Shown here: piece by piece, positions 245 to 41,148 of the stretch | Position numbering within the stretch: the stretch's first letter is position 1 | Layout: each line of letters opens with the position of its first letter | DNA from: an uncultured Eubacteriales bacterium | GTDB lineage: Bacteria; Bacillota; Clostridia; Christensenellales; Aristaeellaceae | Assembly (NCBI GenBank): GCA_902789795.1 | Contig: CADAPM010000017.1 | Span: forward strand, 1-47,954 | Direction of reading: 5' to 3' | Length of the DNA stretch: 47,954 nucleotides | Notes under the pieces: model-generated | Told to the model about the DNA's origin: nothing | The model's database searches: none | The model's input: only the letters and a program-made list of their open reading frames with translations | Made by a program: the position numbers and the translations under genes

Positions 245-340
245 CGAATCCCGGCGTCGCGCGTCGGGATTCGCACCTGAACTTATCACTTATCTCTTAT
301 CACTTATCACTGATATAACCACTTATCTCTTATCACCGAT
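245..340. repeat. Heptamer element E1 (right half only)
   Basis: A 9-bp hairpin (245-253 with 265-273) is followed by CACCTGAACT and an array of 7-bp units of the type CTTATCA, repeated to about 340 with one interruption. The order hairpin, CCTGAACT, array matches the right side of elements E2 and E5. No matching left array is present, so this is a half element. Confidence 0.75.
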
Positions 341-525
341 CTGTTTTCAACGGTTTTGTGAGTCTCTGTGATTATTAGAGTGGGTATTACCTGGACCTTT
401 GCGTTATTAGGAAAACAACAAACCCATATTTTGTAATGATTTAACCGCGGAAGCAGAATACCCTCGTCCGCCAGGCCGGCAATTGATACGTGATCCACTG
501 TGGGACGAATGGTTTTTGTTTGCAT
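307..525 (-). CDS. Small hypothetical ORF, possibly a remnant
   Basis: A 72-residue frame (MQTKTIRPTVDHVSIAGLA...). No convincing ribosome site precedes the ATG and a stop codon lies immediately before it. Its last dozen codons (ENRSVIRDKWLYQ) are encoded by heptamer units of element E1, which also supply the stop. No family is recognised. It may be a decayed gene tail rather than an expressed protein. Confidence 0.25.
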   Translation of the reverse strand: MQTKTIRPTVDHVSIAGLADEGILLPRLNHYKIWVCCFPNNAKVQVIPTLIITETHKTVENRSVIRDKWLYQ

Positions 526-567
526 TTATAACCGGGAGCAATGGAGAACCTGTAAAAGTATAAAGAA

Positions 568-593
568 CAGGGGCTGCCTTATAGCAGCCCCTG
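568..593 (-). terminator. Intrinsic terminator of the LRR gene
   Basis: A 10-bp stem, CAGGGGCTGC pairing with GCAGCCCCTG around a 6-nt loop, is followed on the minus strand by a T-rich tail. It lies 18 nt past the stop codon of the LRR gene. Confidence 0.75.
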
Positions 594-611
594 ATGGGTG
601 TTGGGGATGTG

Positions 612-3600
612 TCAGCCGTTGAAGCCTTCGACCAGTTTCATGATGTTGGTATAACCGGCAGCTTCCAGGGCGTCATAGGCATCAGCGTTATAATCCACCA
701 GCAGGATGGTACCCGCGGGGAAGGCGTTGGCGCCGAAGGACGTGCAGTTGTTCGGGATGCGGATGTACTGAAGGCCGGTGCAGCCGGAGAAGGCGTTGGC
801 GCCGATGGACTGCACGTTGTCCGTCAGCCAGATATAAGAGGCGGCGATGCCGCTGAAGGCTTCGCTCTCAATGGTGGTGAGGTCGGCGGGCGTGACGAAG
901 CCGGGCTCCACCGCCGGCAGGAAGGTGCCAAAGAAGTCGCTGACATCCACGTCGGTCACACTCGCGGGCACGGTGACGCGGATGAGCTCATCTTTGTCTT
1001 TCTGCCAGTTATGGACGAAGAAGACCTCGTTCTTCGTGGCAGTACCGGCGGGGATATTGATCTTCCGGAGGGCGCTGTTCATGAAGGCGTATTCGCCGAT
1101 GGACGTCAGTCCGTCATAGAGCGTGATCTCCTGGATGCCGGTGCTCTCAAAGGCGCTCGGGCCAATGATTTTCAGGGTGGACGGGAGTGTGACATCGGTC
1201 AGGGCACCGGATTGCATGAACGCCGCATTACCGATGCGGGTGAGGCCTTCGGGCAGGGTGACGGAGGTCAGGGCTTCGCAGGAATTGAAAGCATAGTTGC
1301 CGATGCCGGTCACGCCGCTTTCGACGACCACGGTATGGATATCGGCGGAAGTGTCTTTCCAGGGCGCTCCGGTGTTCCAGTCGTAATCAAACATATCCCC
1401 GGTGCCGGAGATGGTCAGGGTGCCGTCGTTCAGGGCCCAGGTCAGGTTGAGGCCGCAAGTGCCGGGGGCGGGAACGAGGTGCAGCCAGGCAACGAACTGG
1501 CCCGCTTTGATGCTGGTGTCTTCGCAGGCGGCGACGATCCTCACGCGATAGTCGCCGGGGGTAAGGGTCAGCTGGTCCAGAATATTGACGGACGAAGCGG
1601 TGCCGAGACGGGAGTCTGCGAAGTAGTTTTCCCAAGCGTAGTCGTTGTCGTCGTAGCCATCCAAACCGGTGTGGGAGCCGTATTCCACGTAGGAGCCGTC
1701 TTCCGTGAAACGGACGAGATCCATATTGAAGCTGCCATTGACTTTTTGCACCACATACCCGATCCCATCAGCGTCCGCGCAGGATGCGGAAAGGGTCATG
1801 GGATCCGCCAGGGCCACTGTCTGCAGGGTGTTCCGCGTCAAGGCCCGGCCATTCAGGGAAACGGCAGGCACGGCCAGTTCTGCGGAGGGCAGCAGGGTCA
1901 CTTCACCGCTGTTGACCCAGTACCAATAGCCGCTGAAACGGGCCCAGCAGTCGATCTCATACCGGCCAAACTCGCTGTTTTCTGCTTCGAGGGTGACGGT
2001 GGATCCATCATGATACTCGTCCGGGCGTCCGCCGCCCAGCCCCTCATAGATGGCATGGTATGCGATGGCTTCTGCGCCTTCGACGGTCAGGGTGACCTGG
2101 CCGGACACGCCCTCCGTGGTGTTGAAGGTCATGGTGTTGGTGTGCGTCGGTTCTGGCTCGGGGTCTTCACGGGTGACTGTGAGGACGGCCTGATTGCCGT
2201 AGGCCCAGGTCTGCGCAGAGCCCTCTTCGGACTCCAGGCGCTTGCCGGTCGCGGTGATCTTATAATTGTTCCCATCTATGAACCATCCGGGCACGGTGAG
2301 AGTTCCGCCATTGTTGACGGAACCACTATAAAGCTCGTTTCCTTCGCCATTATTCATGATCCCTTCGACCGAGACTTCGATCTTGTCGGTGTCTTCGGAG
2401 CCGGTCACGGTGATGGCCATGTCCTGATGGCTCGTGCCGGGGGCCACGGTGATGGTCGGAGCAGGGAGAACGGGAGAATCGGTGATGGTCAGCGTGATTC
2501 TTTTATTATCCGGGCTGGTCCAGCGATCGCTGCTCACGCCGAAGCTGAGGTAATATGTACCGAGGGGCAGATTATAACTGGTAAGGTCGATCACGCCGTT
2601 GCTCGATTCAGCATAAGCGAGCGTGTCTTCACTGCCATCTTCAAGCTCCTTGAGGACTGTACATGTGAAAGCGGTGGCGTTATCACACTCCACGGTGAAG
2701 ATCGGCGATTCGCCATCAGTAATGATCCATGCGCTGTCCACATAATTTCCATTATAGTAAATGGCGGGGACATCGAGCAAAGGAAATACGGTTATGATCT
2801 TTGTGACGGGCTTGGACCATACGCCGTTCACGCGGCCATAGAAGGTATATTCATTTCTTCCTGCATCGGCATAAAGCCTGCCGAAGGACTCGTAGCCGCC
2901 GGAAAGACTGGATCCGTTTACGTCATCGGTTTGCTCACTATAGACCCACCAGGCCAACGCGACATTGTCGACCCCGGAGATGGAATAGGTCAGGTTATCC
3001 AATTCGCTGTCGCCATAATCATACTCGGTCTTTGTTGCAGACAGTTCGACGGTGATCGTGGGCAGCTCAGCGTCCTCCAGGGTGAATTCATAGATGGCAG
3101 TCTCGCTGTCCGCGATGGTTTCAGAAGGCTGTTCGCCATAATACCATGTATAAGCCTTGATGCGGATCTGGTAGGTGCCGGGAGTCTGGAAGTGATAACC
3201 CTCAAGCTGGACGGCATCGCGTGCTATGTAGGGGTCATAATCACTGATGCCAAAGCTTTCCAGGGGTTCGAAATTGCCGCTGTCATCGACGAGGCCTACC
3301 ATCAGGCTGACCCGCTCGGTACCCTCGGCGCAATGGTAATCGAAGCCTACATCCCTGCCGATGGTACCGCCGGTGTTTACATTGGCGATGACCGGGGTGG
3401 GGAGCTGGGAATCGGGGTGGCTGTTATAGAAGATCGTGGCGGAGGTGAGGGAATCGTTACCTTCTCCAATCGTGATCGCGTTCCATTGCGCTTCGGTACC
3501 GGGGTAATAGACATCTGTCAAACGCCAGCAGTTGTTGAAAGCATTGTTGCCGATGGTGGCCAGAGACGCCGGCAGCGGTACGCCGGTGAGTGATTCGAAG

Positions 3601-4683: not shown

Positions 4684-4717
4684 CGGAAACAAGGCAATTT
4701 TTCAGCGTTTTTGAAAG

Positions 4718-4865: not shown

Positions 4866-5035
4866 AGAGTGGAGAGTGGAGAGTGGAGTGTGGAGTTGCG
4901 GAAGAAACTGCGCGAAACGCAGTTTTAACCATATCGCCTGCCACAGGCAGGCCGTAACGATCATACAAATGCCATAGCGAAGCGGCGGCATTTGCACCTG
5001 AACTCCTCACTTCACTCTCCACTCTTCACACTTAT
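4866..5035. repeat. Heptamer element E2 (complete)
   Basis: The left array has units of GGAGAGT (4866-4893), then GTTGCGG, two or more hairpins in the core (for example AACTGCG with CGCAGTT), then CACCTGAACT and a right array of CTCCACT-type units (5003-5034) complementary to the left array. It immediately precedes the first phage gene. Confidence 0.75.
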
Positions 5036-5050: not shown

Positions 5051-5290
5051 ATGATCGAAGAAAACATGAACGATGGTGTTGCCCGCGCGTCTCCCGGGGC
5101 GGCGGCGAAGGAGATGGCGATGGAGGCGCTTTCCCGGGTCGGGGCGCTGATCGCGAGCCCGGAAACGGACCCGCGGGTGCTCCTGCAGGCGGCGAAGCTG
5201 GTGCTGTCCGTGGCCGGGCAGGAGGACGCGGGGACGGACGCCGGCGGGTTTGAGCTGAGGTTCACGGGAGGCGCGGATGGCGACGTTTGA
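5051..5290 (+). CDS. Small phage protein, possible terminase small subunit
   Basis: A 79-residue, mostly helical acidic protein. AAAGGTGG lies 5 nt before the ATG; the in-frame GTG at 5042 falls inside that ribosome site and is less likely. Its 3' end overlaps the large terminase start by 14 bp, the usual position of a small terminase subunit. No helix-turn-helix is obvious and the length is short for TerS, so the role rests on position alone. Confidence 0.5.
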   Translation: MIEENMNDGVARASPGAAAKEMAMEALSRVGALIASPETDPRVLLQAAKLVLSVAGQEDAGTDAGGFELRFTGGADGDV

Positions 5291-6560
5291 GGTGGATCTC
5301 ACGGGCATCAATCCCGTGTACCGGCCCTATCTCGCGGACGGGCACCGGTATCAGCTGTACTTTGGCGGGTCTTCCTCGGGGAAGAGCTGCTTCCTGGCGA
5401 CGCGGGCGGTGCTGGACGCGCTGAGCGGGCGGAACATCCTGGTGGTGCGCAAGGTGCAGCGGACGCTGCACGCCTCCTGCTGGAACGAGGTCATGAAGGC
5501 GATGCGGCGGCTCGGCGCGCAGGCGCTGTTCAGGATCAGCCGCAGCGAAATGACGCTGACGGTGGTGAAGACCGGCGCGCAGATCCTGTTCGCGGGGCTG
5601 GACGACGTGGAAAAGATCAAGTCCATCACGCCGCAGACCGGCGCGCTGACGGACATCTGGATCGAGGAAGCGACGGAGTGCAGCCGGGACGACTTCAAGC
5701 AGCTGGACAAGCGCCTGCGCGGGCAGAGCGCCTTCAAAAAGCGGGTGACGCTGTCCTTCAACCCCACATGGAAGGACCACTGGATCTTCCGGGAGTTCTT
5801 CGGCGGCTGGGCGGAGGAAGGGCAGGAGCCCGGGGAGCGCCCGGGCGTGCGGGTCGAGCCGGGGCGGAGCTATCAGGACAGGAGCCTGAGCATCCTGCGC
5901 ACGACGTACCTGGACAACCGCTTTCTGACCGAGGACGACCGGCGCGCGCTGGAGGAGGAGAAGGCCGGGTATTACTGCACGGTGTACACTTTGGGCCAGT
6001 GGGGGACCCGCGGGGACGCGGTCTTTACCGACTGGCGGAGCGCGGACTTTCGGGCGGAGCCGCCGCCGGAGGGGCTGCGCGTTTTTTATGGGCTGGACTT
6101 CGGGTTCGCCCACGATCCCAGCGCGGCGGTACGATGCCTGCTGGACCGGGAGCATCGGCGCATCTATGTGACGGATACCTTCTCTGAGACGGGGCTGGTG
6201 ATCTGGCAGCTGGCGGAGAGGCTCAAAGCCTTTGCCGGACGGGCGAAGGTGACCTGCGATTCCGCCGACCCGCGGTGCATCGCGGAGCTGCGGGCGCTGG
6301 GCGTCCTGGCGGCCCCGGCGAAGAAGGGGCCGGACAGCCTGCTGCACGGCATCCAGTGGCTGCAGGGGTACAGGATCATCGTGAACCGGGACTGTGAGGA
6401 AATGATCCGCGAGATGAGCGGGTACTGCTGGAAGGAGGGCAGCCCGCCCCAGCCGAGGCCGGGGAACGATCACCTGATCGACGCGCTGAGATACGCGCTG
6501 GAGAGCGAGCAGCGGCCGCGCAAGGCGGTGCTCAAAAAGAAACGGGAGGTGGGACTATGA
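5277..6560 (+). CDS. terL: Phage terminase large subunit (PBSX/Terminase_3 type)
   Basis: A 427-residue packaging motor that cuts concatemeric DNA and drives it into the procapsid. ATPase half: Walker A GGSSSGKS (30-37), Walker B LTDIWIEE (124-131) and coupling motif SFNP (160-163). Nuclease half: first acidic residue in GLDFGFAHDP (D274), second near D328/D331 in CDSADP, and the terminal metal site NDHLIDALRYA (D398/D402). All expected motifs are intact and the length is normal. GGGAGG precedes the ATG inside the upstream gene. The stop overlaps the portal start by 4 bp. An intact motor in an otherwise stripped prophage is notable. Confidence 0.92.
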   Translation: MATFEVDLTGINPVYRPYLADGHRYQLYFGGSSSGKSCFLATRAVLDALSGRNILVVRKVQRTLHASCWNEVMKAMRRLGAQALFRISRSEMTLTVVKTGAQILFAGLDDVEKIKSITPQTGALTDIWIEEATECSRDDFKQLDKRLRGQSAFKKRVTLSFNPTWKDHWIFREFFGGWAEEGQEPGERPGVRVEPGRSYQDRSLSILRTTYLDNRFLTEDDRRALEEEKAGYYCTVYTLGQWGTRGDAVFTDWRSADFRAEPPPEGLRVFYGLDFGFAHDPSAAVRCLLDREHRRIYVTDTFSETGLVIWQLAERLKAFAGRAKVTCDSADPRCIAELRALGVLAAPAKKGPDSLLHGIQWLQGYRIIVNRDCEEMIREMSGYCWKEGSPPQPRPGNDHLIDALRYALESEQRPRKAVLKKKREVGL

Positions 6561-7798
6561 TCACGATCAGCCGGGAGCTGATCCAGGACGGCATCGGGGT
6601 AGACATCCTGACGGCGTGCCTGAAGCGGCACGACGCGCTGCTGCCTGAGCTGCAGCGGCTGCGCGCCTACTATGAAGGGAAGAATCCCGGCATCCTGGAA
6701 CGGACCGAGGGCGAGGCGGGGCAGACGCGGATCCCGCACCCCTTCGGGCGGTACATCGCGCTGACGGCGGCGGGCTACCTGACGGGGCGGCCCATCCGCT
6801 ATGAAGCGCCGGGCCAGGAGCGGGCGCTGGAGGCGATGGCGCGGAGCTTCAAGGAGAACGCCATGGACAGCGTGGACGCGGAGCTGGCGGTGCAGGCGGC
6901 TGTGTACGGCAAGGGCGTGGAGCGCATCTATACGGACCGGCAGGGGCGGGTCCGCAGCGTCACGGTGAGCCCGGAGGACGGGTTCATTGTATATGATGAC
7001 ACGGTGGCGCACGAGCCGCTGTTCGGCCTCTGCCTCTCGCGCCTGACGAAGCCGGACGGGACGGAGGACGGCGTACAGCTGGAGGTGCTGACTGCCGACG
7101 AGACCCTGACCTACCGGCTCAGGGACAGCCGCACGGTCACGGATGGCATGCTGGTCAAACGAGAGCGGCACTATTTCGGGCAGCCGCCGCTGATCGAGTA
7201 CTGGAACAACTGCGACGAGACGGGCGATTTCGCGGCGGTGCTGCCGCTGATCGACGGCTACGACGTGCTGGAGACCGAGCGCGTGCGGGACAAGGAGACC
7301 TTTGCGGACAGCCTGCTGGTGCTGACCGGCTGCCAGCTGGAGCAGGGCTGGCACACGCGCACGGTCACGGGGCCCGACGGCGAGCCGGTGGAGGAGCGCG
7401 TGCCGGACGAGGACCCGGCGCGGAGGCTCAGGCGGGAGCGGTGCCTCTCCCTGCCGGACAGCGAGGCCAGCGCCCAATACCTGACCCACAGCCTGCACGA
7501 GGCGGACACGGAGGTGCTGCGGGCGGCGCTCCGGGAGGATATCCACAAGTTTTCCTTCGTGCCGGATCTCTCCGACAGGGAGTTTGCCCAGAACCAGAGC
7601 GGCGTCGCAATGAAGTACAAGCTCATGGGCCTGGAGCGCATGGCGTCGGTCAAGGAGCGCTGGTTCCGCGAGGGGCTGCGCGTCCGGCTGCAGATCTACG
7701 CGCGGATGCTCGCCCTCTCCGGGGAGGAGGCGGTGGAGCCGGAGAAGATCGAGGCGGTGTTTGAGCGAGCGGATGAGGAAGTAGGAGGTAGGAAGTAG
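6557..7798 (+). CDS. Phage portal protein, SPP1 gp6-like, 3' end replaced by repeat
   Basis: A 413-residue portal forming the DNA entry ring at one capsid vertex. The family hallmark SGVAMKYKLMGLE lies about 75 residues before the end, preceded by the long helical stem region. The last codons (EEVGGRK, stop) are encoded by the AAGTAGG heptamers of element E3, and the length is somewhat below that of most gp6-like portals, so the native C-terminus has probably been trimmed by the repeat. It directly follows terL (ATGA overlap). An SPP1 gp7-like minor head gene would normally follow and is missing. Confidence 0.88.
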   Translation: MITISRELIQDGIGVDILTACLKRHDALLPELQRLRAYYEGKNPGILERTEGEAGQTRIPHPFGRYIALTAAGYLTGRPIRYEAPGQERALEAMARSFKENAMDSVDAELAVQAAVYGKGVERIYTDRQGRVRSVTVSPEDGFIVYDDTVAHEPLFGLCLSRLTKPDGTEDGVQLEVLTADETLTYRLRDSRTVTDGMLVKRERHYFGQPPLIEYWNNCDETGDFAAVLPLIDGYDVLETERVRDKETFADSLLVLTGCQLEQGWHTRTVTGPDGEPVEERVPDEDPARRLRRERCLSLPDSEASAQYLTHSLHEADTEVLRAALREDIHKFSFVPDLSDREFAQNQSGVAMKYKLMGLERMASVKERWFREGLRVRLQIYARMLALSGEEAVEPEKIEAVFERADEEVGGRK

Positions 7799-7845
7799 GA
7801 GGTAGGAAGTAAATAATGTTCCGGCTTTGCCGGGGTTGCGGAGGT
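7777..7845. repeat. Heptamer element E3 (left half)
   Basis: Five units of GGAAGTA/GGAGGTA (7777-7812) overlap the end of the portal gene, followed by a short hairpin (CCGGC with GCCGG, 7821-7832) and GGGTTGCGG. No complementary right array follows; the next feature is the promoter of the inserted gene at 7929. Confidence 0.65.
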
Positions 7846-7879
7846 GGCGGGGATATGATAGAATCGTGGCGCAGGGAGT

Positions 7880-7909
7880 TTGACAGTCAATATGTACGTG
7901 CTCTATGCG
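7880..7909 (+). promoter_or_regulatory. Promoter of the moron gene
   Basis: TTGACA (7880-7885), 18-bp spacer, TATGCG (7904-7909). The predicted start near 7916 leaves only a short leader containing the GGGAGG ribosome site. The -10 box is weak. Confidence 0.45.
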
Positions 7910-7928
7910 CTGACGGGAGGTAGCCACC

Positions 7929-8651
7929 ATGAGTATAGCCGCACTCATCGCTTCTTTGCTCATTGCGCTCGGCGCCCTGGTATCGCCGCTGACCACCCCG
8001 GTCGCGCCGGAGGCTGCCGCGCCCGCACCGACCGCCGAGCCGTGGACAGGGGACGGGCACTGGTACACCTTCCAGTATGTGCCGTCCGGCTTGCTCGATT
8101 CGACAGGGCGGCATTTTAAGGCCCTGGAATTGCCGTATTTCATCGCCAATGAAGAGGGCGTGGCCATCGGCAAGCTCAAGGGCGCAAGCACAAATATCAA
8201 GCTGTGTACCCGGGACCCGGAAGAGCGCGTGATCTGGGTGCGCACGGAGGATTTCTGGGGCACGTTCGTACGCACCGGCGTTGAGCTGCCCGTGCCCGGG
8301 CCGGACAACTGCGACCTGGGGATCGGTACTGAGTCGGCAACGTATTACCTATCTGACCGTGCGAGATTCGAACTGGAGGCCCTGGCGGAGAAGCTGGAGA
8401 CCTCCGGGGAGCCCTTCACGGCCGTTCCGGAAACGCTGGGGCCGACCTTTGCTTATTTCTTCCGCGATATGCCCTGGCTGGGGTATTGGCCCTTCCTGAC
8501 GCTGGAGTGGCTTGAGGGCCGGCCGGGGCTGACGCAATGGGGCACTGATCCGCAGACCGGAGGCGTGATACCGCAGCGCTTCGTCCCGATGGATTCCAGG
8601 AGCACATTGCTCTGGGAGTGCGTCAGGGCCATCGGCAGTGAGCAGGAGTAA
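7929..8651 (+). CDS. Secreted or membrane-anchored protein, phage moron-like
   Basis: A 240-residue protein with an N-terminal hydrophobic segment (residues 4-19) followed by an Ala/Pro-rich linker to about residue 38, then a soluble domain rich in Trp and Phe. No family is recognised and nothing suggests a virion role. It has its own promoter (7880-7909), a GGGAGG ribosome site 8 nt before the ATG, and its own 12-bp-stem terminator (8678-8718), inside a phage operon. That self-contained layout is the signature of a moron, a lysogenic-conversion cargo gene. The function could be cell-surface modification or exclusion, but this is inference. Confidence 0.7.
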   Translation: MSIAALIASLLIALGALVSPLTTPVAPEAAAPAPTAEPWTGDGHWYTFQYVPSGLLDSTGRHFKALELPYFIANEEGVAIGKLKGASTNIKLCTRDPEERVIWVRTEDFWGTFVRTGVELPVPGPDNCDLGIGTESATYYLSDRARFELEALAEKLETSGEPFTAVPETLGPTFAYFFRDMPWLGYWPFLTLEWLEGRPGLTQWGTDPQTGGVIPQRFVPMDSRSTLLWECVRAIGSEQE

Positions 8652-8677
8652 AGAGAACAGACGATCCACAATCAAAC

Positions 8678-8718
8678 AAAGACTATGGCAAGCGAAATGC
8701 GCCGGCCATAGTCTTTTC
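8678..8718 (+). terminator. Intrinsic terminator of the moron gene
   Basis: A perfect 12-bp stem, AAAGACTATGGC (8678-8689) with GCCATAGTCTTT (8705-8716), and a short T-run. It separates the moron from the scaffold gene. Confidence 0.8.
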
Positions 8719-8742
8719 ATTTGCAATCAAGGAGGCAGAATC

Positions 8743-9102
8743 ATGAACGAAAACCAAGAGAACATGGACGATCAGGCGGCAGCCAAGGAACAGGAGATGG
8801 CGCCGGAGCTTTCACAAAAGCTGCAGGCGCTGGAGGAGCGCGAGGCGGCGCTGTGCCTCCGGGAGCGGCAGATGCGCATGCGCACGCAGCTGAAGGACTG
8901 CGAGCTGCCGGAGGAGCTGATGGAGTGCCTGGACCTGTCCAGCGACGAGCGGGCGGAAAAGACGCTGGAGACTCTGGCGGGGGCCTTCCACGACGCCGTG
9001 ACCCGCAGGGTCAAACAAAAGCTCGGCGCGGAGCCGCCCCGGGCCGCCGCAGCCGCGCAGGACGGGATGGCGGCCGTAAGACGAGCTATGGGGTTAAAGT
9101 GA
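8743..9102 (+). CDS. Phage capsid scaffolding protein (DUF4355-like)
   Basis: A 119-residue acidic protein. Residues 15-50 form a charged coiled coil (SQKLQALEEREAALCLRERQ), followed by the typical 'LPEELMECLDLSSDERAEKTLETL..AF..AV' helical hairpin and an Ala-rich tail. This is the architecture of DUF4355 scaffolding proteins, which fill the procapsid and leave before maturation. It is shorter than most members. AAGGAGG lies 7 nt before the ATG. The gene order scaffold then capsid is the standard one. Confidence 0.75.
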   Translation: MNENQENMDDQAAAKEQEMAPELSQKLQALEEREAALCLRERQMRMRTQLKDCELPEELMECLDLSSDERAEKTLETLAGAFHDAVTRRVKQKLGAEPPRAAAAAQDGMAAVRRAMGLK

Positions 9103-9124
9103 CTGTTCAGTGAACTGAACAGTC
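9101..9124. repeat. Perfect 10-bp inverted repeat at the scaffold stop codon
   Basis: GACTGTTCAG, TGAA loop, CTGAACAGTC. The TGA stop of the scaffold gene overlaps the first arm. There is no T-run, so it is unlikely to be an intrinsic terminator; it may be an operator, an RNA processing or stability hairpin, or an insertion scar. Confidence 0.6.
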
Positions 9125-9145
9125 CCGCATGGGGGAGAAATCGAA

Positions 9146-9284
9146 AGGTTGAAGGTTGAAGGGAGAAGGGTTAAGGTAGGAAGTAGGAGTTAGGAAGTAG
9201 GAAGTAATTATTGTTTATGCAGCGGCGGTAGTAATGCCGGGGCAGGAGCAGAATTACTTTCTACTTTCTCCTTCCTACTTCCTA
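9146..9284. repeat. Heptamer element E4 (complete, core inverted)
   Basis: A long left array first uses TTGAAGG-type units and then shifts in register to TAGGAAG units (9146-9207). A core of about 50 bp follows (9205-9260), then a right array of CTACTTC units (9258-9284). The core is the reverse complement of the core in E8, E9 and E10, while the arms keep the same orientation because they are palindromic. Confidence 0.8.
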
Positions 9285-9345
9285 ATTGATTCATTGCACA
9301 ACAGAATTCGATCAAATAACAAACAAAAAACAAGGAGGAACAATT

Positions 9346-10203
9346 ATGCCTAACAATTCTATCACACTATTCAAAAAGTACGTTCCGCTGCTGGATGAGA
9401 CTTACAGGGTGGCAGCGCTGACCAGCGTGCTGGACGGGCCGGAGGAGATGGCCCGGGAGGGCGCGAACGCGGGGGAAATCGTCATCCCGGACATGACCAT
9501 GCAGGGGCTGGTGGGCTACAGCCGCAACAACGGCTTCACCGACGGCACCGTGACCCTGACCAACACCACCTACCAGTGCAATTACGAGCGCGGCAGGATG
9601 TTCACGGTGGACGCCCTGGACAACGCGGAGACCGCGGGCGTGGCCTTTGGCCGTCTGGCGGGCGAGTTCATCCGCAACCATGTGGCGCCGGAAATCGACG
9701 CCTTCCGCATCGCGCGGTATGCCGGGACCTCCGGCATCGGCAGCGCGTCCGCGGATCTTTCCACCGGCGTGGATGTGATTGCGGCGCTGCGCGTCGCGGC
9801 CACGGCCATGGATAATGGCGAGGTGCCGCTGGACCAGCGCTATCTGTTCATCACGCCGGCGCTGTACACGCTCATCGAGGACCTGGATACCATCAAGAGC
9901 CGCGCGGTGCTCAGCCGCTTCGAGCAGATCATCCAGGTGCCCCAGACCCGCATGTACAGCGGCATCAGCCTGTCCACCAGCGGCGCGGGCGGGTATTCCA
10001 AGACTTCCACGGCCAAGAACCTGAACTTTCTGGCGGTGCACAAGCCGGCGGTGATCCAGTACAACAAGCATGTCGCGCCCAAGGTGGTCACGCCCGAGCA
10101 GAACCCCGCCGCCGACGCCTGGAAGTTCGGCTACCGCGTGAACGGCATCGCCGATGTGTTCAAGAACAAGAAGGCGGGCGTATACGCGCACCTGGCGGCG
10201 TAA
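9346..10203 (+). CDS. Phage major capsid protein (HK97-fold type)
   Basis: A 285-residue shell protein. Its segments look like a compact HK97-fold coat protein of Siphoviridae-type Firmicutes phages: an N-terminal arm with 'LDETYRVAALTSVLD', then the central 'GRMFTVDALDNAETAGVAFGRLAGEFIRNHVAPEIDAFR' region (E-loop and spine) and a C-terminal 'VFKNKKAGVYAH' strand. The identification rests on pattern and on position after the scaffold gene. AAGGAGG lies 8 nt before the ATG. The frame is complete, and heptamer elements flank it on both sides (E4, E5). Confidence 0.82.
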   Translation: MPNNSITLFKKYVPLLDETYRVAALTSVLDGPEEMAREGANAGEIVIPDMTMQGLVGYSRNNGFTDGTVTLTNTTYQCNYERGRMFTVDALDNAETAGVAFGRLAGEFIRNHVAPEIDAFRIARYAGTSGIGSASADLSTGVDVIAALRVAATAMDNGEVPLDQRYLFITPALYTLIEDLDTIKSRAVLSRFEQIIQVPQTRMYSGISLSTSGAGGYSKTSTAKNLNFLAVHKPAVIQYNKHVAPKVVTPEQNPAADAWKFGYRVNGIADVFKNKKAGVYAHLAA

Positions 10204-10204
10204 T

Positions 10205-10330
10205 TAAGTGATAAGTGATAAGAGATAAGTGATAAGTTGCGGTAGAAATGCCTGACGGCATTTCAAATCAAAGAAATCGCGGAGCGATTTCATCCTGAAC
10301 TTATCACTCATCATTCATCACTTATCACTA
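10205..10330. repeat. Heptamer element E5 (complete)
   Basis: The left array has units of AAGTGAT (10205-10236). Then come GTTGCGG, hairpin AAATGCC/GGCATTT (10246-10263), hairpin AAATCGC/GCGATTT (10274-10290), CCTGAACT and the complementary right array of TTATCAC units (10299-10330). It is the clearest copy of the GTTGCGG...CCTGAACT core type. Confidence 0.85.
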
Positions 10331-10343
10331 AATGGAGGAGTTT

Positions 10344-10664
10344 ATGGAGGAAATGCTGTCAACCTTGCGTGCGCTGGTCGGGCGCGGGGATGAGGGGGAG
10401 GACGCTCTGCTGGGCGTCCTCCTTTCTCAGGCCCGGGCGGCGGTGCTGGGCATCACGGGCAGGACGGAACTGCCGGAGGGGCTGAAGGGCGCGGTCGTCG
10501 ATCTGGCGGTGCTGCGCTACAACCGGCGCGGCATGGAAGGGGAGACGCAGCGCACCGAGGGCGGCGTCACCGCGCAGATGGAGGCGCTGCCGGAGGACAT
10601 CCGGCGGCAGCTCAGGCGTTACACGCTGGCGAAAGCGGGGGTGGAACGATGCGCGAACGGATGA
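10344..10664 (+). CDS. Phage head-tail connector protein (gp6-like adaptor)
   Basis: A 106-residue helical protein placed directly after the capsid gene, with the feel of the Phage_connect_1/DNA-packaging adaptor family: 'LLGVLLSQARAAVLGITGRTELPEGLKGAVVDLAVLRYNRRGMEGETQRTEGG'. Such adaptors bind the portal and begin the neck. The chosen ATG has GGAGGAG just upstream; an in-frame ATG at 10332 lies inside that ribosome site. It overlaps the next gene by 16 bp. Confidence 0.72.
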   Translation: MEEMLSTLRALVGRGDEGEDALLGVLLSQARAAVLGITGRTELPEGLKGAVVDLAVLRYNRRGMEGETQRTEGGVTAQMEALPEDIRRQLRRYTLAKAGVERCANG

Positions 10665-10981
10665 TCCGCCACCGGACCTTCCTGCTCATGCGGCCGCAGC
10701 CGCAGGCGGGGGAGCCCTGGCCCCCGGAGGCGCATCTGGAGCGTCTGCTGACCGGGGCAAAGTATGACCTGCCGGAAACGGAAAAGCTGACCCTGGGCGG
10801 CCCCAGGCCGGAACAGGGGTTCTGCCTGGTGCTGCCGGCGGAAGAAGATATCCGGGCCGGGGATCTGCTGCGGCCGGCGGGGGATCCCGCCAGGCGCTAC
10901 GCGGTCACGGAGGTGCGCAGGTATCCCGGACACGCAGAGGCGGCGGCCCGGAGGATCCCGGACGAGGAGGAAACGGAATGA
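10649..10981 (+). CDS. Phage head-completion protein, putative
   Basis: A 110-residue basic protein with a beta-rich middle ('LRPAGDPARRYAVTEVRRYPGHAEAAARR') that resembles head-closure or minor structural proteins encoded right after the connector. There is no diagnostic motif. It overlaps the connector by 16 bp and the holin by 4 bp, so translation is probably coupled. In a normal siphophage the tail-completion and tail-tube genes would follow; here the holin follows directly. Confidence 0.5.
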   Translation: MRERMIRHRTFLLMRPQPQAGEPWPPEAHLERLLTGAKYDLPETEKLTLGGPRPEQGFCLVLPAEEDIRAGDLLRPAGDPARRYAVTEVRRYPGHAEAAARRIPDEEETE

Positions 10982-11397
10982 AGAATCAGACGATCGAACT
11001 GTGCTTTGCCCAGTGCCGGGCGGCCGCGGCGCTGATCGGCGGGTGGCTGGGGTATTTTCTGGGCGGGATGGACGGGCTGCTGACGGCGCTGATCGCGCTG
11101 GTCGGGCTGGATTATCTGACCGGCGTGCTGTGCGCGGTCGCGGAAAGAAAGCTGTCCAGCGCCGTGGGGTTCCGCGGCATCTGCCGCAAAGCGCTCATCT
11201 TTATGCTGGTGGGGGTCGGGCATCTGCTGGACACCCATGTGGCGGGCTCCGGGGCGGCCATGCGGACGGCGGTGATCTGCTTTTACCTGTCCAACGAGGG
11301 CATCTCCCTGCTGGAAAACGTGTCCCGGCTGGGGCTGCCGGTGCCGGAGCGGCTGAAGGAGGCCCTGCGGCAGCTGCACAGTAAGGACGGGGAATGA
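10978..11397 (+). CDS. Phage holin (toxin secretion/phage lysis holin family)
   Basis: A 139-residue integral membrane protein with three to four hydrophobic segments (about 16-31, 33-52, 72-88 and a weaker one near 100-115). It carries the family pattern 'LTALIALVGLDYLTGVLCA...KLSS.VGFRGICRKALIFMLV'. Holins open the cytoplasmic membrane for endolysin release. The C-terminus is charged and helical (PERLKEALRQL). The stop overlaps the endolysin start (ATGA). Confidence 0.88.
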   Translation: MKNQTIELCFAQCRAAAALIGGWLGYFLGGMDGLLTALIALVGLDYLTGVLCAVAERKLSSAVGFRGICRKALIFMLVGVGHLLDTHVAGSGAAMRTAVICFYLSNEGISLLENVSRLGLPVPERLKEALRQLHSKDGE

Positions 11398-12197
11398 GCG
11401 GGAGGATCGATCAGCCCTTCACCAACGAGCACTTTGCGGCCTGGTGCGAAAAAATGGTCGGGCGCCCGTATTGGTACGGCGCGTGCTGCTACCGCGCCAC
11501 GGAGGTGCTGCTCAGGAAAAAGCGGAGCCGCTACCCGAAGCGCTATCCTGTATCCATGAACGCGAAATACAGGCGGGACATCGCCGCCGGGGAGGTCGTG
11601 GCGGACTGCATCGGCGCGTGCAAGGGCTATGCCTGGTCGGACGGCGGGGAGGCGATCCTCGCCGCCTTGGGGCAGAAGGGCTCTATCCCGATGAAATACC
11701 AGGCGAACGGCTGCCCGGACAAGGGCGCGGACAGCATGCTCGCCTGGGCGAAGCGACAGGGCATGCCTTGGGGCGGCATCGGCACGCTGCCGGACGTGCC
11801 GGGGCTGTGCCTGCACAAGCAGGGCCACGTGGGCTACACCGTGGGCGGCGGCTATGCAGTGGAATGGCGCGGCACGAAGTGGGGCTGCGTCCGGACGGCC
11901 ATCGCGGACCGGCCCTGGACCGAGTGGTTCGCCCTGCCCTTCATCGACTACGCAAACGCCCCTCTGCCCCGGCGGAAGCGGACGCTTCGGCGTGGGAACA
12001 AAGGGGCGGAGGTCAGAACACTGCAGGAATCATTGAATCAGCGCGGCGCTGCTCTGGCCGTGGACGGGAAATTCGGGAAGCGGACGGAGGTAGCGGTCAG
12101 ACAGTTTCAGCGTGAAAACGGGCTGAAGGCGGATGGAGTGTGCGGGGAAAGGACGTGGGAGAGGTTGGAAAAGTTGAAGGGTGAAGGGAAAGTGTGA
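11394..12197 (+). CDS. Phage endolysin: NlpC/P60-like domain plus PG-binding domain
   Basis: A 267-residue lysin. The N-terminal half resembles cysteine peptidases of the CHAP/NlpC type, with candidate catalytic Cys72 in 'ADCIGACKGYAW' and His145 in 'GHVGYTVGGGYAVEWRG'. Residues about 197-258 form a complete PG_binding_1 domain ('RGNKGAEVRTLQESLNQRG...DGKFGKRTEVAVRQFQ'). The last eight residues (KLKGEGKV) and the stop are encoded by heptamers of element E6, so the original 3' end has been overwritten, though the binding domain looks complete. There is no signal peptide, so export depends on the adjacent holin. Confidence 0.85.
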   Translation: MSGRIDQPFTNEHFAAWCEKMVGRPYWYGACCYRATEVLLRKKRSRYPKRYPVSMNAKYRRDIAAGEVVADCIGACKGYAWSDGGEAILAALGQKGSIPMKYQANGCPDKGADSMLAWAKRQGMPWGGIGTLPDVPGLCLHKQGHVGYTVGGGYAVEWRGTKWGCVRTAIADRPWTEWFALPFIDYANAPLPRRKRTLRRGNKGAEVRTLQESLNQRGAALAVDGKFGKRTEVAVRQFQRENGLKADGVCGERTWERLEKLKGEGKV

Positions 12198-12253
12198 GTG
12201 TGGAGAGTGAAGAGTGAAGAGTGGAGTGAGGAGTTGCGGCGCTTCGCGCTGCG
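12162..12253. repeat. Heptamer element E6 (left half)
   Basis: About ten heptamers drift from TTGAAGG-like to GAGTGAA/GAGTGGA units (12162-12232), followed by GTTGCGG and a short GC hairpin. The array starts inside the endolysin gene. No right array follows; a MITE-like hairpin element lies just downstream. Confidence 0.7.
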
Positions 12254-12290: not shown

Positions 12291-12422
12291 TTTACGCGCA
12301 ACAGGACGGGCGGGCCAGTGTCCCGCCCCTACGGCGGTTGCGGATATTGCTGTGATTTGAATCGCTTTTGGGTTATCTTGTAGGGGCGCCACACTGGGGG
12401 CGCCCGTCCTGTGACGCGTAAA
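12291..12422. mobile_element. MITE-like hairpin element, 132 bp
   Basis: Terminal inverted repeats of 22 bp (12291-12312 and 12401-12422) match at 20 positions: TTTACGCG, two mismatches, ACAGGACGGGCG. The pairing extends imperfectly inward to arms of about 42 bp ending in CCCCTAC/GTAGGGG, leaving an AT-richer loop. There is no ORF and no clear target-site duplication. The GTAGGGGCG/GGGCG sequence resembles intergenic repeats seen in many Firmicutes genomes. Confidence 0.65.
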
Positions 12423-13041: not shown

Positions 13042-13076
13042 AGGTTGAAGGCAGAAGGGTGAAGGGAGGAGGTGAA
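13042..13076. repeat. Heptamer array E7 (single arm)
   Basis: Four to five AGGTTGA/AGGGTGA-type heptamers between the HD gene and the GH13 gene. No complementary arm or core is visible. Confidence 0.5.
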
Positions 13077-14728: not shown

Positions 14729-14996
14729 GGGATATTTGAAAAAACCGGCGGTGGATGACCGCTGCCGTGCGTATTTAATAAAGATTTAATAATTTGGAAG
14801 CTCGGATGTGTGAGATGGCGTCTATATGCGGCCGTTATGTACATCAGATTAAGTATCGTAATATAATCTTAATAATTATGTAATATAATCGAAATAAAAC
14901 GCTTGAAAACGCCCCGTTCCCCTTCGGAAAGCAGGCGGGGCGCGGCATTCCGGCGGGCGGGGGCGGATCGGCGCCTGCTCATATGTTGCGGCGGGC
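14729..14996. other. AT-rich divergent intergenic region with direct repeats and a hairpin
   Basis: No gene is seen. The 10-bp sequence TAATATAATC occurs at 14859-14868 and 14881-14890, a 22-bp pitch (two helical turns) typical of tandem regulator sites. A GC hairpin (14910-14916 with 14936-14942) is followed on the minus strand by a T-rich tail and may be a terminator in that direction. The -35 box of the SPFH promoter begins right after the region. Confidence 0.4.
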
Positions 14997-23605: not shown

Positions 23606-23724
23606 GAAGTAGGAAGGATGAGGTAGGAAGTAGGAAGTAATTCTACTTCTGTTCACGGCACTACAAATGCCTCTGCATACACAATAATTACTTCCTACTT
23701 CCTAACTCCTACTTCCTAACTTCT
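23606..23724. repeat. Heptamer element E8 (complete)
   Basis: The left array has units of AAGTAGG (23606-23640), the core runs from GTAATTCT to AATAATTAC with a GGC...GCC hairpin, and the right array has CTACTTC units (23690-23724). It lies 30 bp after the ade stop and just upstream of the promoter of the phosphorylase. Confidence 0.85.
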
Positions 23725-32840: not shown

Positions 32841-32872
32841 GGGTTGCAGCGAAGGGACAAGTTGCGTTTTAG

Positions 32873-32984
32873 TGAGGAGTTAGGAAGTAGGAGGTAGGAG
32901 TTAATTCTTCTCCTGCTTCAGGCGCTACAGGCGCCACCTGAGAAACATTCTTTACTTCCTACTTCCTACTTTCTACTTCCTAAT
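32873..32984. repeat. Heptamer element E9 (complete)
   Basis: The left array is AGTTAGG/AAGTAGG (32873-32903), the core contains AATTCTTCTCCTGC and a GGCGC...GCGCC hairpin, and the right array has CTACTTC units (32951-32984). It sits inside the operon between the CARDB-like and lamin-tail genes. Confidence 0.85.
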
Positions 32985-33003
32985 TAACCGAAAGGGTATC
33001 TGT

Positions 33004-37857: not shown

Positions 37858-37887
37858 GAATGAAAAAGCTGATCATCTGCACTATTA

Positions 37888-37918
37888 TTCTAATAATCTG
37901 ATAATTAAATTATTAGAA
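37888..37918. promoter_or_regulatory. AT-rich inverted repeat upstream of the DUF2974 gene
   Basis: TTCTAATAAT (37888-37897) and ATTATTAGAA (37909-37918) form perfect 10-bp arms with an 11-bp spacer; a third TATTAGAAA half-site follows at once. The layout suits an operator more than a terminator, since no GC stem or T-run is present. Confidence 0.4.
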
Positions 37919-37976
37919 AACTATTAGAAAGATATCAGAAAGCAGCATGAACATACTGGCCATGGAGGATCGACCA

Positions 37977-39104: not shown

Positions 39105-39119
39105 AAAAAGGTATTCAAT
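39091..39119 (+). promoter_or_regulatory. Promoter of the GPH symporter gene
   Basis: TTGACA (39091-39096), 17-bp spacer, TTCAAT (39114-39119); the -35 box is inside the last codons of the DUF2974 gene. Confidence 0.5.
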
Positions 39120-39188
39120 AGGAACCAGAAAGATTTGTTTCTTTCGAAAGAGCAAAAATGCACATCACATCGGGGAGGAACTGCATCC

Positions 39189-40991
39189 ATGAGTCAGCAA
39201 GCCGCAAAAACCAGTATTTTTGACAGGCTGCCCAGCCTGATCAAAAAGTCCAACGTTACCCTGTTCCCTGAAGGAGCCATGGGCTACCTGATCGGACCCA
39301 CCCTGGCGCTGATGGCCAACTCTGTGCTGGCCAACTACTTCAACAAATACATGACCGACGTGCTGAACATCAACAGCTGGGCCAGCGAGTTCTTCAAGTG
39401 GCTGCCCGTCATCTCGGTCATTTTCGTGGTCTTTGGCAATATCATCGTCGGCCGGCTCATGGACCGCAGCAAGTCCCGCGCGGGCAAGGCTCGTCCCCTG
39501 CTGCTGATCTCGGTGCCCATCAGCTTCCTGGCGCTTCTGATCCTGTTCGTCATTTCTCCGCTGGCGACCGATACCATCAACACCCAGGGCCAGGGCCTGG
39601 CGCTGGTGTGCATCGCCATCGGCTATAACCTGTGGTTCGCCTTCGCGTACCCCATGTACTACACGCCCCACGCGGCGCTGGTTAACCTGTCCACCCGCAA
39701 CTCCAAGGATCGCACCCTGCTGGCCACCCTGTCCAACGCGACGGCGCTGGCGGCCATGGGTCTGTCCACCATGATCCTGCCCTTCTTCCTCTCCCTGCTG
39801 TTCGTGCCCCAGACCACCAACCTGCCTGAGGGCGCCGAGCTGCTGGCCTCCGGCGAATACGCGCTGAACGGCGTGGTGCTCTACGACGCGGTAGCCTCCT
39901 ACAACAACTGGAAGATCTTCGTCATCGCCCTGACCGTCATCACCGTCATCGGTGCGCTGGTCGAGTTCATGTTCACCCGCGAGCGCGTCACCGAGGAGTC
40001 CATGAACCAGGGCGACGATGCCGCCCCGGCCAAGGCCCTGCCCATCAGCAAGCAGGCCAAGATCTGCTTCGGCGACAAGTTCTGGATCATCATGATGATC
40101 TTCTTCTTCTGCTACCAGCTGGGCGGCATGACCAAGAACGTCAGCCAGCTCTACTTCTGCCAGGCTATGTTCAAGAACGCCGACGGCTTCTACACCATCG
40201 CCAACGGCGGCAACATCTCCGGCCTGCTGGCCATCATCGGCGCGATCCCGACGGCCATCGGCATGGTGGCGGCTCCCATCCTCGCCAACAAGATCGGCAA
40301 GGGCAAGGCCATCCTCTGCGGCGCGGTGCTGGCCACCGTGGGCGGCGCGCTGGGTCTCCTGGCGCCTGACAACCTGATCCTGGTCTATGTGTCCTTCATC
40401 CTGAAGGCCCTGGGCTCCACCCCCGCGATGTACCTGTCCATGGCGCTGCTGGCTGACGTGCTGGACCACCAGGAGGCGGTCAACGGCGCGCGCACCGACG
40501 GCCTGACCATGACCATCTACGGCGCCATCATGGCCGGTATGACCGGCGTGGCCACCGGCATCCTGAACATCGTGCTGTCCAACGTGGGCTACGCGGCGGA
40601 CAACATCTCCTCCGAGGCCATCCGCGGCGCGATGCCCTGGGTGTTCATCGGCGTGGAGACCATCTGCTACCTCGTGATCGCCCTGTTCTTCATCTTCATG
40701 GGCGTCGAGAAGTTCGGCAAGTTCGACCATGAGGCCATCGTAGCGGACCAGAAGGCTGCCGCCCTGGCGGAAGGCCGCGCCTACGTCTCTCCCGAAGAAA
40801 AGATCCGTCTCGAAGAGGGCGAGGAAGCCTACCAGGCCGAGCTCAAGAAGCAGGCTGACGCCAAGGCCGCCGAGGAAAAGAAGCTCGCCGCCCTCTCCGC
40901 CGACGCCCGCAAAGCGCTCCTGGACAAGGAAAACGCCATCAAGGCCGAGCTCAACAGCCTGAGAAAGGCGAAGGGGAAAGCGGCGATCTGA
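39189..40991 (+). CDS. GPH-family glycoside/oligosaccharide:cation symporter
   Basis: A 600-residue major-facilitator transporter with about 12 membrane helices. 'GRLMDRSKSRAGKARPLLLISVPISF' is the GPH hallmark loop between helices 2 and 3. Family members import melibiose, raffinose, xylosides or similar glycosides with Na+ or H+. The C-terminal 75 residues are an unusual Ala/Lys/Glu-rich helical tail predicted to be cytoplasmic. GGGAGG lies 11 nt before the chosen ATG; an earlier in-frame ATG at 39135 lacks a site. With the cytoplasmic GH13 enzymes it suggests uptake then hydrolysis of oligosaccharides. Confidence 0.9.
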   Translation: MSQQAAKTSIFDRLPSLIKKSNVTLFPEGAMGYLIGPTLALMANSVLANYFNKYMTDVLNINSWASEFFKWLPVISVIFVVFGNIIVGRLMDRSKSRAGKARPLLLISVPISFLALLILFVISPLATDTINTQGQGLALVCIAIGYNLWFAFAYPMYYTPHAALVNLSTRNSKDRTLLATLSNATALAAMGLSTMILPFFLSLLFVPQTTNLPEGAELLASGEYALNGVVLYDAVASYNNWKIFVIALTVITVIGALVEFMFTRERVTEESMNQGDDAAPAKALPISKQAKICFGDKFWIIMMIFFFCYQLGGMTKNVSQLYFCQAMFKNADGFYTIANGGNISGLLAIIGAIPTAIGMVAAPILANKIGKGKAILCGAVLATVGGALGLLAPDNLILVYVSFILKALGSTPAMYLSMALLADVLDHQEAVNGARTDGLTMTIYGAIMAGMTGVATGILNIVLSNVGYAADNISSEAIRGAMPWVFIGVETICYLVIALFFIFMGVEKFGKFDHEAIVADQKAAALAEGRAYVSPEEKIRLEEGEEAYQAELKKQADAKAAEEKKLAALSADARKALLDKENAIKAELNSLRKAKGKAAI

Positions 40992-41014
40992 CGCCAAGAG
41001 AAAGCAAAAGCTTT

Positions 41015-41148
41015 GAAGTAGGAGGGAGTGAAGTAGGAAGTAGGAGTTAGGAAGTAGGAAGCAATTCTACTCCCGCGGCTGGCGTTATAAAGGCCACAGC
41101 AAGAACACTCTTTACTTCCTACTTCATCCTTCCTACTTCCTACTTTCC
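41015..41148. repeat. Heptamer element E10 (complete)
   Basis: The left array is AAGTAGG/AGTTAGG (41015-41062), the core runs from GCAATTCTACTCC with GGC...GCC to TCTTTAC, and the right array has CTACTTC units (41110-41148). It starts about 25 bp after the symporter stop. Confidence 0.85.

Follow-up and report, generated by a model that had tools for sequence, protein, structure and literature searches.

Heptamer-armed palindromes between the genes of an uncultured Eubacteriales bacterium: an apparently new sort of small spreading repeat

Many spaces between genes of an uncultured Eubacteriales bacterium, with a gut-type Clostridia genome, contain palindromic elements in which a core is flanked by two inverted arrays of 7-bp units. 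As a first-pass annotation had claimed, the paired arms are real: the unit differs from element to element and agrees inside each, even where different arms enclose common cores. The current work describes the anatomy of these elements, their class agreement, shared cores and arm heterogeneity, their position beside genes and their patchy distribution in the genus. Such heptamer-armed palindromes seem to represent a small spreading repeat of a new sort. They were analyzed in one stretch of 47,954 nt (the window), in a sample of its own genome (G000) and in drafts of related genomes (G001-G007).

The observation was confirmed in the window, where 15 seven-base arrays and 5 automatic pairs were detected; 50 dinucleotide shuffles gave 0.1 arrays on average, 1 at most, and 0 pairs. 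Purine-rich 7-bp arrays were found at all ten places listed by the first-pass annotation (E1 to E10), no more than a few tens of bases from the starts given there (Table 1). E2, E4, E5, E8, E9 and E10 are complete, each having a core between a purine arm and its inverted match; E2 is missing from the automatic pair count because its right arm falls under the automatic threshold. The units reported earlier also hold (AAGTGAT in E5, AGAGTGG in E2, AAGTAGG in E4, E8 and E10), and the left arm of E9 is a mixture of AAGTAGG and AGGAGTT. E1, E3, E6 and E7 have one arm each. No left arm was found for E1, which is counted among the solo halves, and E7 was caught by a tandem-repeat program but missed by the purpose-written array detector.

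Table 1. Parts of the ten elements in the window
Feature	Position	Strand	Description
E1 half element	246..311	-	core hairpin about 246-272; class A right arm 281-311, unit AAGTGAT
E2 left arm	4866..4896	+	class S, unit AGAGTGG
E2 core	4897..5001		hairpin AAACTGCG..CGCAGTTT, middle part, hairpin AAATGCC..GGCATTT
E2 right arm	5002..5032	-	class S; 27/31 match to left arm
E3 lone arm	7776..7811	+	class B; overlaps 3' end of portal gene
E4 outer array	9145..9170	+	class T (AAGGTTG); no right-side partner seen
E4 left arm	9174..9206	+	class B, alpha form with AGTTAGG
E4 core	9207..9254		class B type, minus orientation
E4 right arm	9255..9287	-	class B, beta form; 26/33 match
E5 left arm	10207..10237	+	class A (AAGTGAT); directly past stop codon of major head protein gene
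E5 core	10238..10298		hairpins GAAATGCC..GGCATTTC and GAAATCGC..GCGATTTC
E5 right arm	10299..10329	-	class A; 27/31 match
E6 lone arm	12196..12234	+	class S; at 3' end of endolysin gene
E7 lone array	13042..13076	+	class T-like (class by eye); period 14 in tandem-repeat program
E8 left arm	23607..23639	+	class B, beta form
E8 core	23640..23688		class B type
E8 right arm	23689..23721	-	class B, alpha form; 28/33 match
E9 left arm	32871..32903	+	class B with D-like units
E9 core	32904..32952		class B type
E9 right arm	32953..32985	-	class B; 25/33 match
E10 outer extra units	41015..41030	+	extra units outside the left arm
E10 left arm	41031..41063	+	class B, alpha form
E10 core	41064..41112		class B type
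E10 right arm	41113..41145	-	class B, beta form; 28/33 match

Among lags of 4 to 15, strong arrays in 447,954 bases numbered 30 at lag 7, 11 at lag 14, the double of 7, and 0-5 at each other lag. The arms are nearly fixed in length, mostly 31-33 nt, with extra outer units on some. Neighbors within 200 bp stand in purine-pyrimidine order in 38 cases versus 1 in pyrimidine-purine order, with 5 + 5 of one kind; under a looser filter, the numbers are 42 versus 1.

Across sampled sequence from four genomes in the genus, 68 purine-pyrimidine pairs were found, in 61 of which the two units are at most 1 base apart, against a mean of 22 and a maximum of 36 after re-pairing. One common pool of hairpin-rich cores sits between three arm classes, and both arms agree in 25 of these 26 elements; re-pairing gave at most 21 agreeing elements, and 0 of 100,000 trials reached 25. 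Core similarity crosses the classes, with one D/A core pair being 88.6% identical over 140 nt, and the best core neighbor belongs to another arm class in 11 of the 24 elements that have a near full-length core neighbor. Exceptions are one element with unlike arms (L113:4346-4455), neighbors with unlike arms in L357 and L359, and one pair of G004 (L311) whose units lie at distance 2. Nested concentric arms, with different classes in mirror order, can be seen at L121:16560-17520 and L100:17979-18181.

The first-pass annotation had also concluded that the arms change together. The data bear this out for the unit class but not for the sequence, as fine variants are not shared between the two arms of an element. 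For class B, 34 of 49 aligned rows were kept after dropping duplicates and opposite-orientation copies of the same elements; the arms differ at 5.74 positions on average within elements and 4.89 between them, and at most 2 of 10,000 re-pairings were as high. One of the 34 elements is out of register, and the result is unchanged without it. Most of the class B excess lies in the third unit, without which the means are 3.32 and 3.08 (335 of 5,000 re-pairings). The corresponding means are 3.2 and 2.6 in class A (10 elements, p 0.013), 5.9 and 5.1 in class D (9 elements, p 0.10), and 4.7 and 3.8 in class S (6 elements, p 0.13), so that the lower likeness within elements is significant in two of four classes. 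Arms that are less alike within an element than across the class are therefore not homogenized by conversion, and the proposal that gene conversion or template switching keeps them alike is not borne out in detail. Class agreement without sequence agreement is explained more simply by the inheritance of whole elements. Moreover, a nearly constant alpha arm stands opposite a beta arm in 20 of the 34 class B elements and opposite another alpha arm in none. Random matching predicts 3.8 alpha/alpha elements and leaves none in 0.2% of trials; two distinct ends would produce the observed pattern.

The best reading, which we regard as evenly poised between right and wrong, is that these are palindromic units that spread and are inherited as wholes, with ends specific to each class and cores exchanged among them. 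In its favor stand the class agreement, the shared cores, the arm heterogeneity, the alpha/beta pairing, the copy number that varies within the genus, the like pairs in other genera and the placement beside genes. Small non-coding palindromes would spread whole through the gaps between genes, and both ends of one element would be read by the same machinery; copies lie near stop codons and seldom between divergent genes. Class agreement of the arms may follow from the inheritance of both parental ends and from their recognition by one machinery, and the differences in detail from separate histories of the two ends or from an instability of perfect palindromes. A given core may recur across arm classes because cores are exchanged, or because the classes diverged around an old core. 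The heptamer structure itself and the nested arms in mirror order are left without an account by this spreading of whole units, and the pairs with unlike arms and the mostly unpaired arrays of G004 and G003 also speak against it.

With gene calls from a gene finder trained on Pfam-supported genes, 73 elements lie between two called genes, of which 54 are in co-directional, 16 in convergent and 3 in divergent spaces (2 further elements are at stretch edges and 1 is within a gene). The background of intergenic spaces of at least 60 nt comprises 236, 44 and 57, respectively (n=337). The A-type core follows the arm through a short junction (T-NN-GG-NNN) and then a hairpin, and forms an inverted pair of hairpins with variable stems; the B-type core has no such pair. 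Rfam models gave 0 matches in the window and, in L107, L109, L122 and L128, only Gut-1 at L128:8765-8839, outside any element. Between 4700 and 13200, 9 terminator-like sites were found versus a shuffle mean of 5.7; two minus-strand sites adjoin or fall inside elements (after the E3 arm and in the E5 core), and one lies just before E2. A terminator role was rejected in general, but single elements may have one. The element at L125:12886 sits behind a terminator-like hairpin (by eye). Stops in all frames were considered as a function and rejected: they occur in 96 of 144 arms, against 28.5 for shuffled arms and 105.8 for arrays rebuilt from shuffled units, because a heptamer array of such composition yields them anyway, and only 3 of 18 class S arms have stops in all three frames. 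A phage origin was likewise rejected, as three exact arm patterns had 0 matches each in viral contigs.

Within the genus, many pairs were found in G000 and G007, 1 in the stretches of G003 and 2 in those of G004. The first-pass annotation would not have survived arms that are mostly unpaired; pairing is the rule in G000 and G007, where 84/124 and 46/59 purine or pyrimidine arrays belong to purine-pyrimidine pairs, but not in G004 (4/14) and G003 (2/7). No heptamer-arm pairs were seen in the sampled stretches of G001, G005 and G006; at least one exists in G001 outside them (L351). In other genera of the family, paired arms of like unit were found in 5 of the 8 loci examined. Orthologous gaps of G000 and G007 contain elements in both genomes in 4 cases, in one genome only in 4 and 1, and in neither in 27 (Fisher p 0.005); this excess of doubly occupied gaps is not predicted by free insertion unless sites are strongly preferred, and it counts against the spreading of whole units. 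At two orthologous sites of the same class, the core lies in opposite orientations. The G000-G003 screen gave 1 gap occupied in both, 5 in G000 only and 14 in neither, counts that understate shared sites by at least one since the purine filter missed an AGTGCGG element of G003. The remaining relatives offered 1 or 2 sites each, with the element in G000 alone or in neither. Empty orthologous sites exist, with flanks too diverged for reading an insertion junction, and viral relatives of the prophage portal protein, tried as a source of empty sites, were too distant (25-35% identical).

One intergenic site bears on an alternative in which the element stays in place while a templated mechanism, be it snap-back template switching, slippage or ectopic conversion, replaces the unit of both arms. 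This site is occupied in three species by three units, with arms matching in each: G000 has an AAGTGAT element, G007 three AAGTAGG elements in tandem, and G003 an AGTGCGG element with a B-like core, all ending within about 5 nt of one common stop codon (by eye). The class differs at 3 of the 4 doubly occupied G000-G007 sites from the screen, and in-place rewriting would also suit the very similar cores between different arms and the mirror order of nested arms; it is nevertheless unlikely, for the arms of one element share nothing fine beyond their class. Selection on a stem in the transcript, a 3' UTR stabilizer or attenuator that maintains the class of both arms, would agree with a folding much stronger than that of shuffled sequence (z -6.4 to -11.1; four elements, including one examined on both strands) and with the hairpins about 7 nt inside the arm, which keep pairing while their stem sequence varies (stem of at least 7 with at most 1 mismatch in 66/77 halves). 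A-core elements, moreover, adjoin stop codons, with the facing stop codon at most 15 nt away or overlapped at 21 of 33 such sides, and of 27 B cores between co-directional genes, 20 point the same way as those genes. The excess of G-U over A-C that a sense-RNA stem predicts at arm differences is absent, however (67 vs 61, 42 elements), the alpha/beta order shows no tie to gene direction (9 vs 6), many single arms persist, and stepwise compensated change across about nine heptamers is implausible, which makes this explanation improbable; a stem constraint at the DNA level may still act on the arms. From the earlier interpretation, then, the family, its paired arms and the unit agreement within elements stand, but conversion or template switching and the sense-RNA stem receive little support.

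Ordinary MITEs, which derive by deletion from an insertion sequence whose DDE transposase recognizes the inverted ends, would likewise be short, multicopy, intergenic and patchily distributed, with terminal inverted repeats such as the imperfect arms of 31-33 nt. We consider them quite unlikely here. Target-site duplication was not found among 60 elements (mean flank identity reached 0.30 at best, while re-paired flanks averaged 0.298, a test in which uncertain element ends could hide a short duplication), which counts against the spreading of whole units as well. As regards the 5'-TA-3' termini of such repeats (PMC2229807), the left flanks have T at -2 in 25/60 and A at -1 in 24/60, with ends uncertain by some bases. 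Class B has two end forms, each genome has several unit classes, and no insertion sequence with heptamer ends was noticed in the material covered, the transposase search having covered the Y1 family. That search revealed no linked mobilizer, a further point against spreading units. The Y1-type family (PF01797) is present in 2 of 8 draft genomes, one gene being in G000, and matches were absent from the drafts of G001, G002, G003, G005, G006 and the element-rich G007. A REPIN-like system, in which a REP-associated tyrosine transposase recognizes the hairpin after T-NN-GG and the heptamer arms are extra, could draw on that G000 gene and on the inverted hairpin pair with its conserved short foot. 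It is very improbable: the repeat upstream of the gene, two copies of GTAGGGGCGG, is unlike the heptamer elements, no heptamer arrays occur in the 3,279 bases around it (L346), the genomes named above lack Y1 matches, the stems vary greatly, and class B has no paired hairpins.

The present elements can be compared with several known systems. Cyanobacterial STRR are heptanucleotide simple repeats, intergenic tandem heptamers; the head-to-tail 7-bp units of the lag 7 count are alike in this, but the near-fixed length of 31-33 nt and the pairing of 84/124 own-genome arrays differ from arrays of free length with no fixed partner. Pneumococcal BOX elements are also modular, intergenic and built of hairpin modules; they are not known to have heptamer-array arms. 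REPINs are extragenic REP doublets forming hairpins, with several groups per genome, and in the available part of their description (PMC3116915) group-based names imply that both halves come from one group. The present elements resemble them as short extragenic inverted doublets, but have 7-bp periodic arms of near-fixed length, units varying by class and species, variable inner hairpin stems and no linked tyrosine transposase found. Correia/NEMIS, RUP, ERIC and RPE, as treated in the available part of PMC2229807, are similarly shorter than 200 bp with inverted ends and long stem-loops, RUP being described as intergenic. Most of these bacterial MITE-like repeats are said to create target duplications and to have TA ends; here no duplication was found, and several unit classes surround common cores. 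The word "heptamer" is absent from PMC2229807. The TAACTGA arrays of Beggiatoaceae, in the available part of PMC4679880, are intergenic tandem heptamers too, with some sets broken by related units; there, one main unit is repeated in the same direction, in most cases immediately before a start codon, and one inverted case is reported, unlike the paired, inverted arms with differing units described here. No description of paired heptamer arms was recognized in the available parts of the literature searched, including PMC4679880, PMC3542288, PMC2229807 and PMC3116915.

Two kinds of bacterial repeats that are usually kept apart, heptamer arrays and palindromic mobile repeats, are now joined, and single arrays elsewhere in the class may in some cases be halves or remnants of such elements. 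If a protein reads the units, specificity would differ from class to class, and the arms would supply binding sites ready for use in identifying that protein. In-place rewriting, if true, would mean that paired arrays evolve in concert about a fixed center, with sister species carrying different, internally matching units at one locus. These elements provide a natural case in which paired sequences agree in type yet turn over between related species, and the genus permits presence, absence and unit to be compared site by site.

The heptamer arrays claimed for the window by the first-pass annotation proved real at all ten places (E1-E10), six of which carry complete elements. The window contains 15 arrays, against a mean of 0.1 and a maximum of 1 in shuffled sequences. 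In 447,954 bases, a lag of 7 gave 30 strong arrays and a lag of 14, its double, gave 11; the remaining lags from 4 to 15 gave 0 to 5. In a sample of 847,954 bases from the window's genome (the window plus 40 stretches), array neighbours at most 200 bp apart stood in purine-then-pyrimidine order in 38 cases, in the reverse order in 1, and as same-type neighbours in 5 and 5; contigs of this sample were picked by length and earlier hits, so its density is not an unbiased estimate.

The genome itself is a draft of 2.59 Mb in 64 contigs, 88% complete, with the window as contig 17. For one window protein, the search of the named genome collection found a single relative, from Clostridia MAG isolate RGIG2628 (Goat_Omasum), at 69% identity. 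Phage-type genes (terminase, portal, major head protein, head-tail adaptor, holin, endolysin) adjoin E2-E6, and E7 comes after an unmatched reading frame.

Arms are mostly 31-33 nt long, about 4.4 heptamers, and fall into classes by unit: A (AAGTGAT), S (AGAGTGG), D (AGGAGTG and AATGAGG), B (AAGTAGG) and T (AAGGTTG). Two core types were found. In the type B core, usually 48-50 nt long, one small hairpin is flanked by ends resembling ATTCTACT and ATTATTGT. In the A-type core, each side carries the junction T-NN-GG-NNN followed by a hairpin; in 66 of 77 halves the stem has 7 pairs or more and no more than 1 mismatch, and the stem sequences are many and different.

Genes were called with a purpose-written, simple codon-usage finder. 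Both neighbour genes were called for 73 elements and single arms; of the others, 2 were at stretch edges and 1 within a gene. The context of the 73 was co-directional in 54, convergent in 16 and divergent in 3; the corresponding numbers for the 337 intergenic spaces of at least 60 nt were 236, 44 and 57. A-core elements sit close to the stop codon, at a relative position between stop and next start that averages 0.09 (15 cases), and at 21 of 33 facing stops they overlap the codon or come within 15 nt of it. For B elements the tendency is weaker (0.35, 27 cases; 10 of 39 facing stops).

The central claim of the annotation, that both arms of one element use the same unit while the unit varies between elements, is upheld at the level of arm class by three results. 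In 68 purine-pyrimidine pairs (42 from the window's genome G000, 23, 2 and 1 from its same-genus relatives G007, G004 and G003, whose stretches were partly chosen by hits), the unit distance between arms was 0 in 35, 1 in 26 and 2 in 7; thus 61 of 68 differ by at most one base, against 22 on average and 36 at most after random re-pairing. Arm classes agree in 25 of 26 A-type-core elements drawn from the window, 40 stretches and 90 search loci (A/A 10, D/D 9, S/S 6). Finally, the core does not determine the arm class: the best core neighbour has a different arm class in 11 of 24 elements (those for which a core neighbour reached 75% coverage, out of 26 from G000 and 6 from G007), and in one D/A pair the cores share 88.6% identity over 140 nt. 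That arms occur mostly in pairs held for arrays of G000 (84/124) and G007 (46/59), but not for those of G004 (4/14) and G003 (2/7).

Gene conversion or template switching, proposed earlier as what keeps the arms alike, finds no support in the arms themselves, since those of one element are less alike than same-class arms of different elements. Differences within and between elements were 5.74 and 4.89 in class B (34 elements; at most 2 of 10,000 re-pairings as high), 3.2 and 2.6 in A (10 elements, p 0.013), 5.9 and 5.1 in D (9 elements, p 0.10), and 4.7 and 3.8 in S (6 elements, p 0.13). Class B arms have two forms, by motif-based labels set after the arms had been inspected: the nearly constant alpha (23 of 68 arms) may stand on either side of the core, is opposite beta in 20 of 34 elements, and is never opposite alpha (3.8 such elements would be expected, and 0.2% of random matchings have none). 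The third unit, which separates the forms, holds much of the class B effect; without it the values are 3.32 and 3.08, reached by 335 of 5,000 re-pairings. This heterogeneity speaks against conversion or template switching in the recent past; separate histories of the two ends, or avoidance of perfect palindromes, would fit it. Selection on a stem, the other earlier proposal, was tested as sense-RNA pairing: over the 42 elements that lie between co-directional genes, 67 arm differences would give G-U in the sense transcript and 61 would give A-C (p 0.66). An RNA role is possible, though the arms show no sign of it. Folding of the elements is much better than that of shuffled sequences, which is expected of any inverted repeat; B core orientation equals gene direction in 20 of 27 co-directional cases, and alpha/beta order has no tie to it (9 vs 6).

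A BLAST search with E8 matched 3 of the 7 relatives from the same genus and none of 52 other genomes. No pairs occurred in the sampled stretches of G001 (100,000 bases), G005 (78,610) and G006 (200,000); G001 has one outside them (L351). A D-class query matched 17 of 120 family genomes, counting its own and three same-genus relatives, and 12 of 50 genera, its own among them, with arms alone matching in most. Like-unit pairs stand in 5 of 8 other-genus loci: L352, L353 and L358, with junctions of the same kind and different hairpins (by eye), L355, around a B-like core, and L359; no pair was seen in L354, L356 and L360. Unlike-unit neighbouring arrays occur in L359, besides its pair, and in L357 of G004. 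Within the class, 16 of 391 genomes, the own included, have arrays of GTGANNA units; the fetched loci outside the own genome gave one clear pair (L199), most arrays being single.

Positions of individual features (L-numbers, sampled stretches or loci outside the window)
Stretch	Positions	Feature
Window	5277-12197	Compact set of the phage genes named in the text, heptamer elements at several gene ends; no tail gene among ten proteins scanned, 4 of 10 without match
Window	12323-12332	GTAGGGGCGG-like repeats in the gap of E6
Window	14850-14897; 37907-37942	AT-rich tandem repeats, 11-bp or 22-bp, between called genes
L100	17979-18181	Mirror-nested arms, T-B and B-T
L113	4346-4455	Sole unlike-arm case (S/D) among the 26 A-type-core elements
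L114	16800-18050	Gene-poor DNA with other dispersed repeats, e.g. CATCCGTGCGTGCC and CTGTCATTCTGAG types (by eye)
L131	8300-10660	As L114
L118	15056-15313	Clearest shared gap
L121	1868-5212	About 3.3 kb of lower-GC DNA between D-class arms; reading frames ECF-sigma-like, HTH-like and others (names by eye)
L121	16560-17520	Mirror-nested arms, S-B-A left and A-B-S right (by eye)
L121	16621-17501	Long class A element with GTAGGGGCGG-like repeats inside
L128	12155-12559	As L121:16621-17501
L128	8765-8839	Gut-1 RNA (RF01706), 58 bits
L159	11890-12070	Same-class orthologue of E10, core reversed (by eye)
L167		Same-class orthologue of E8, core reversed (by eye)
L163	10852-11347	Three class B elements in tandem, each copied along with the 3' end of the neighbour gene
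L346	1435-1899	Y1-type (REP-associated-like) transposase gene
L346	1264-1273; 1412-1421	Two inverted GTAGGGGCGG upstream of that gene

In 36 orthologous gaps of G000 and G007, an element was present in both in 4, in G000 only in 4, in G007 only in 1 and in neither in 27 (Fisher p 0.005), and arm class differs in 3 of the 4 occupied in both. In the clearest shared gap, in L118, the G000 element has AAGTGAT arms around an A-type core. G007 (L163) carries three AAGTAGG elements in tandem there, and G003 (L292) has AGTGCGG arms flanking a B-like core; by eye, the occupied stretch in each species ends no more than about 5 nt from the same stop codon. Differing units in one gap may reflect either repeated refilling or in-place rewriting; orthologous gaps without an element also occur. 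The mechanism we favour is that whole units with class-specific ends would spread, cores being exchanged besides. Spread of whole units is opposed by the lack of target duplication in 60 elements, by the failure of a Y1 family search to find a linked transposase, and by the mirror-nested arms of L121 and L100 (similar nests in L294 and L312). In-place rewriting is retained as the novel alternative, because palindromic copying explains mirror-order nests of different classes equally well or better.

Among the open-access papers listed by the literature searches, none was seen to describe this repeat as such. The elements form a real type of palindromic repeat that occurs in several genera of a single family; as their defining novelty lies in the heptamer build of their ends, they are placed among the palindromic repeats.
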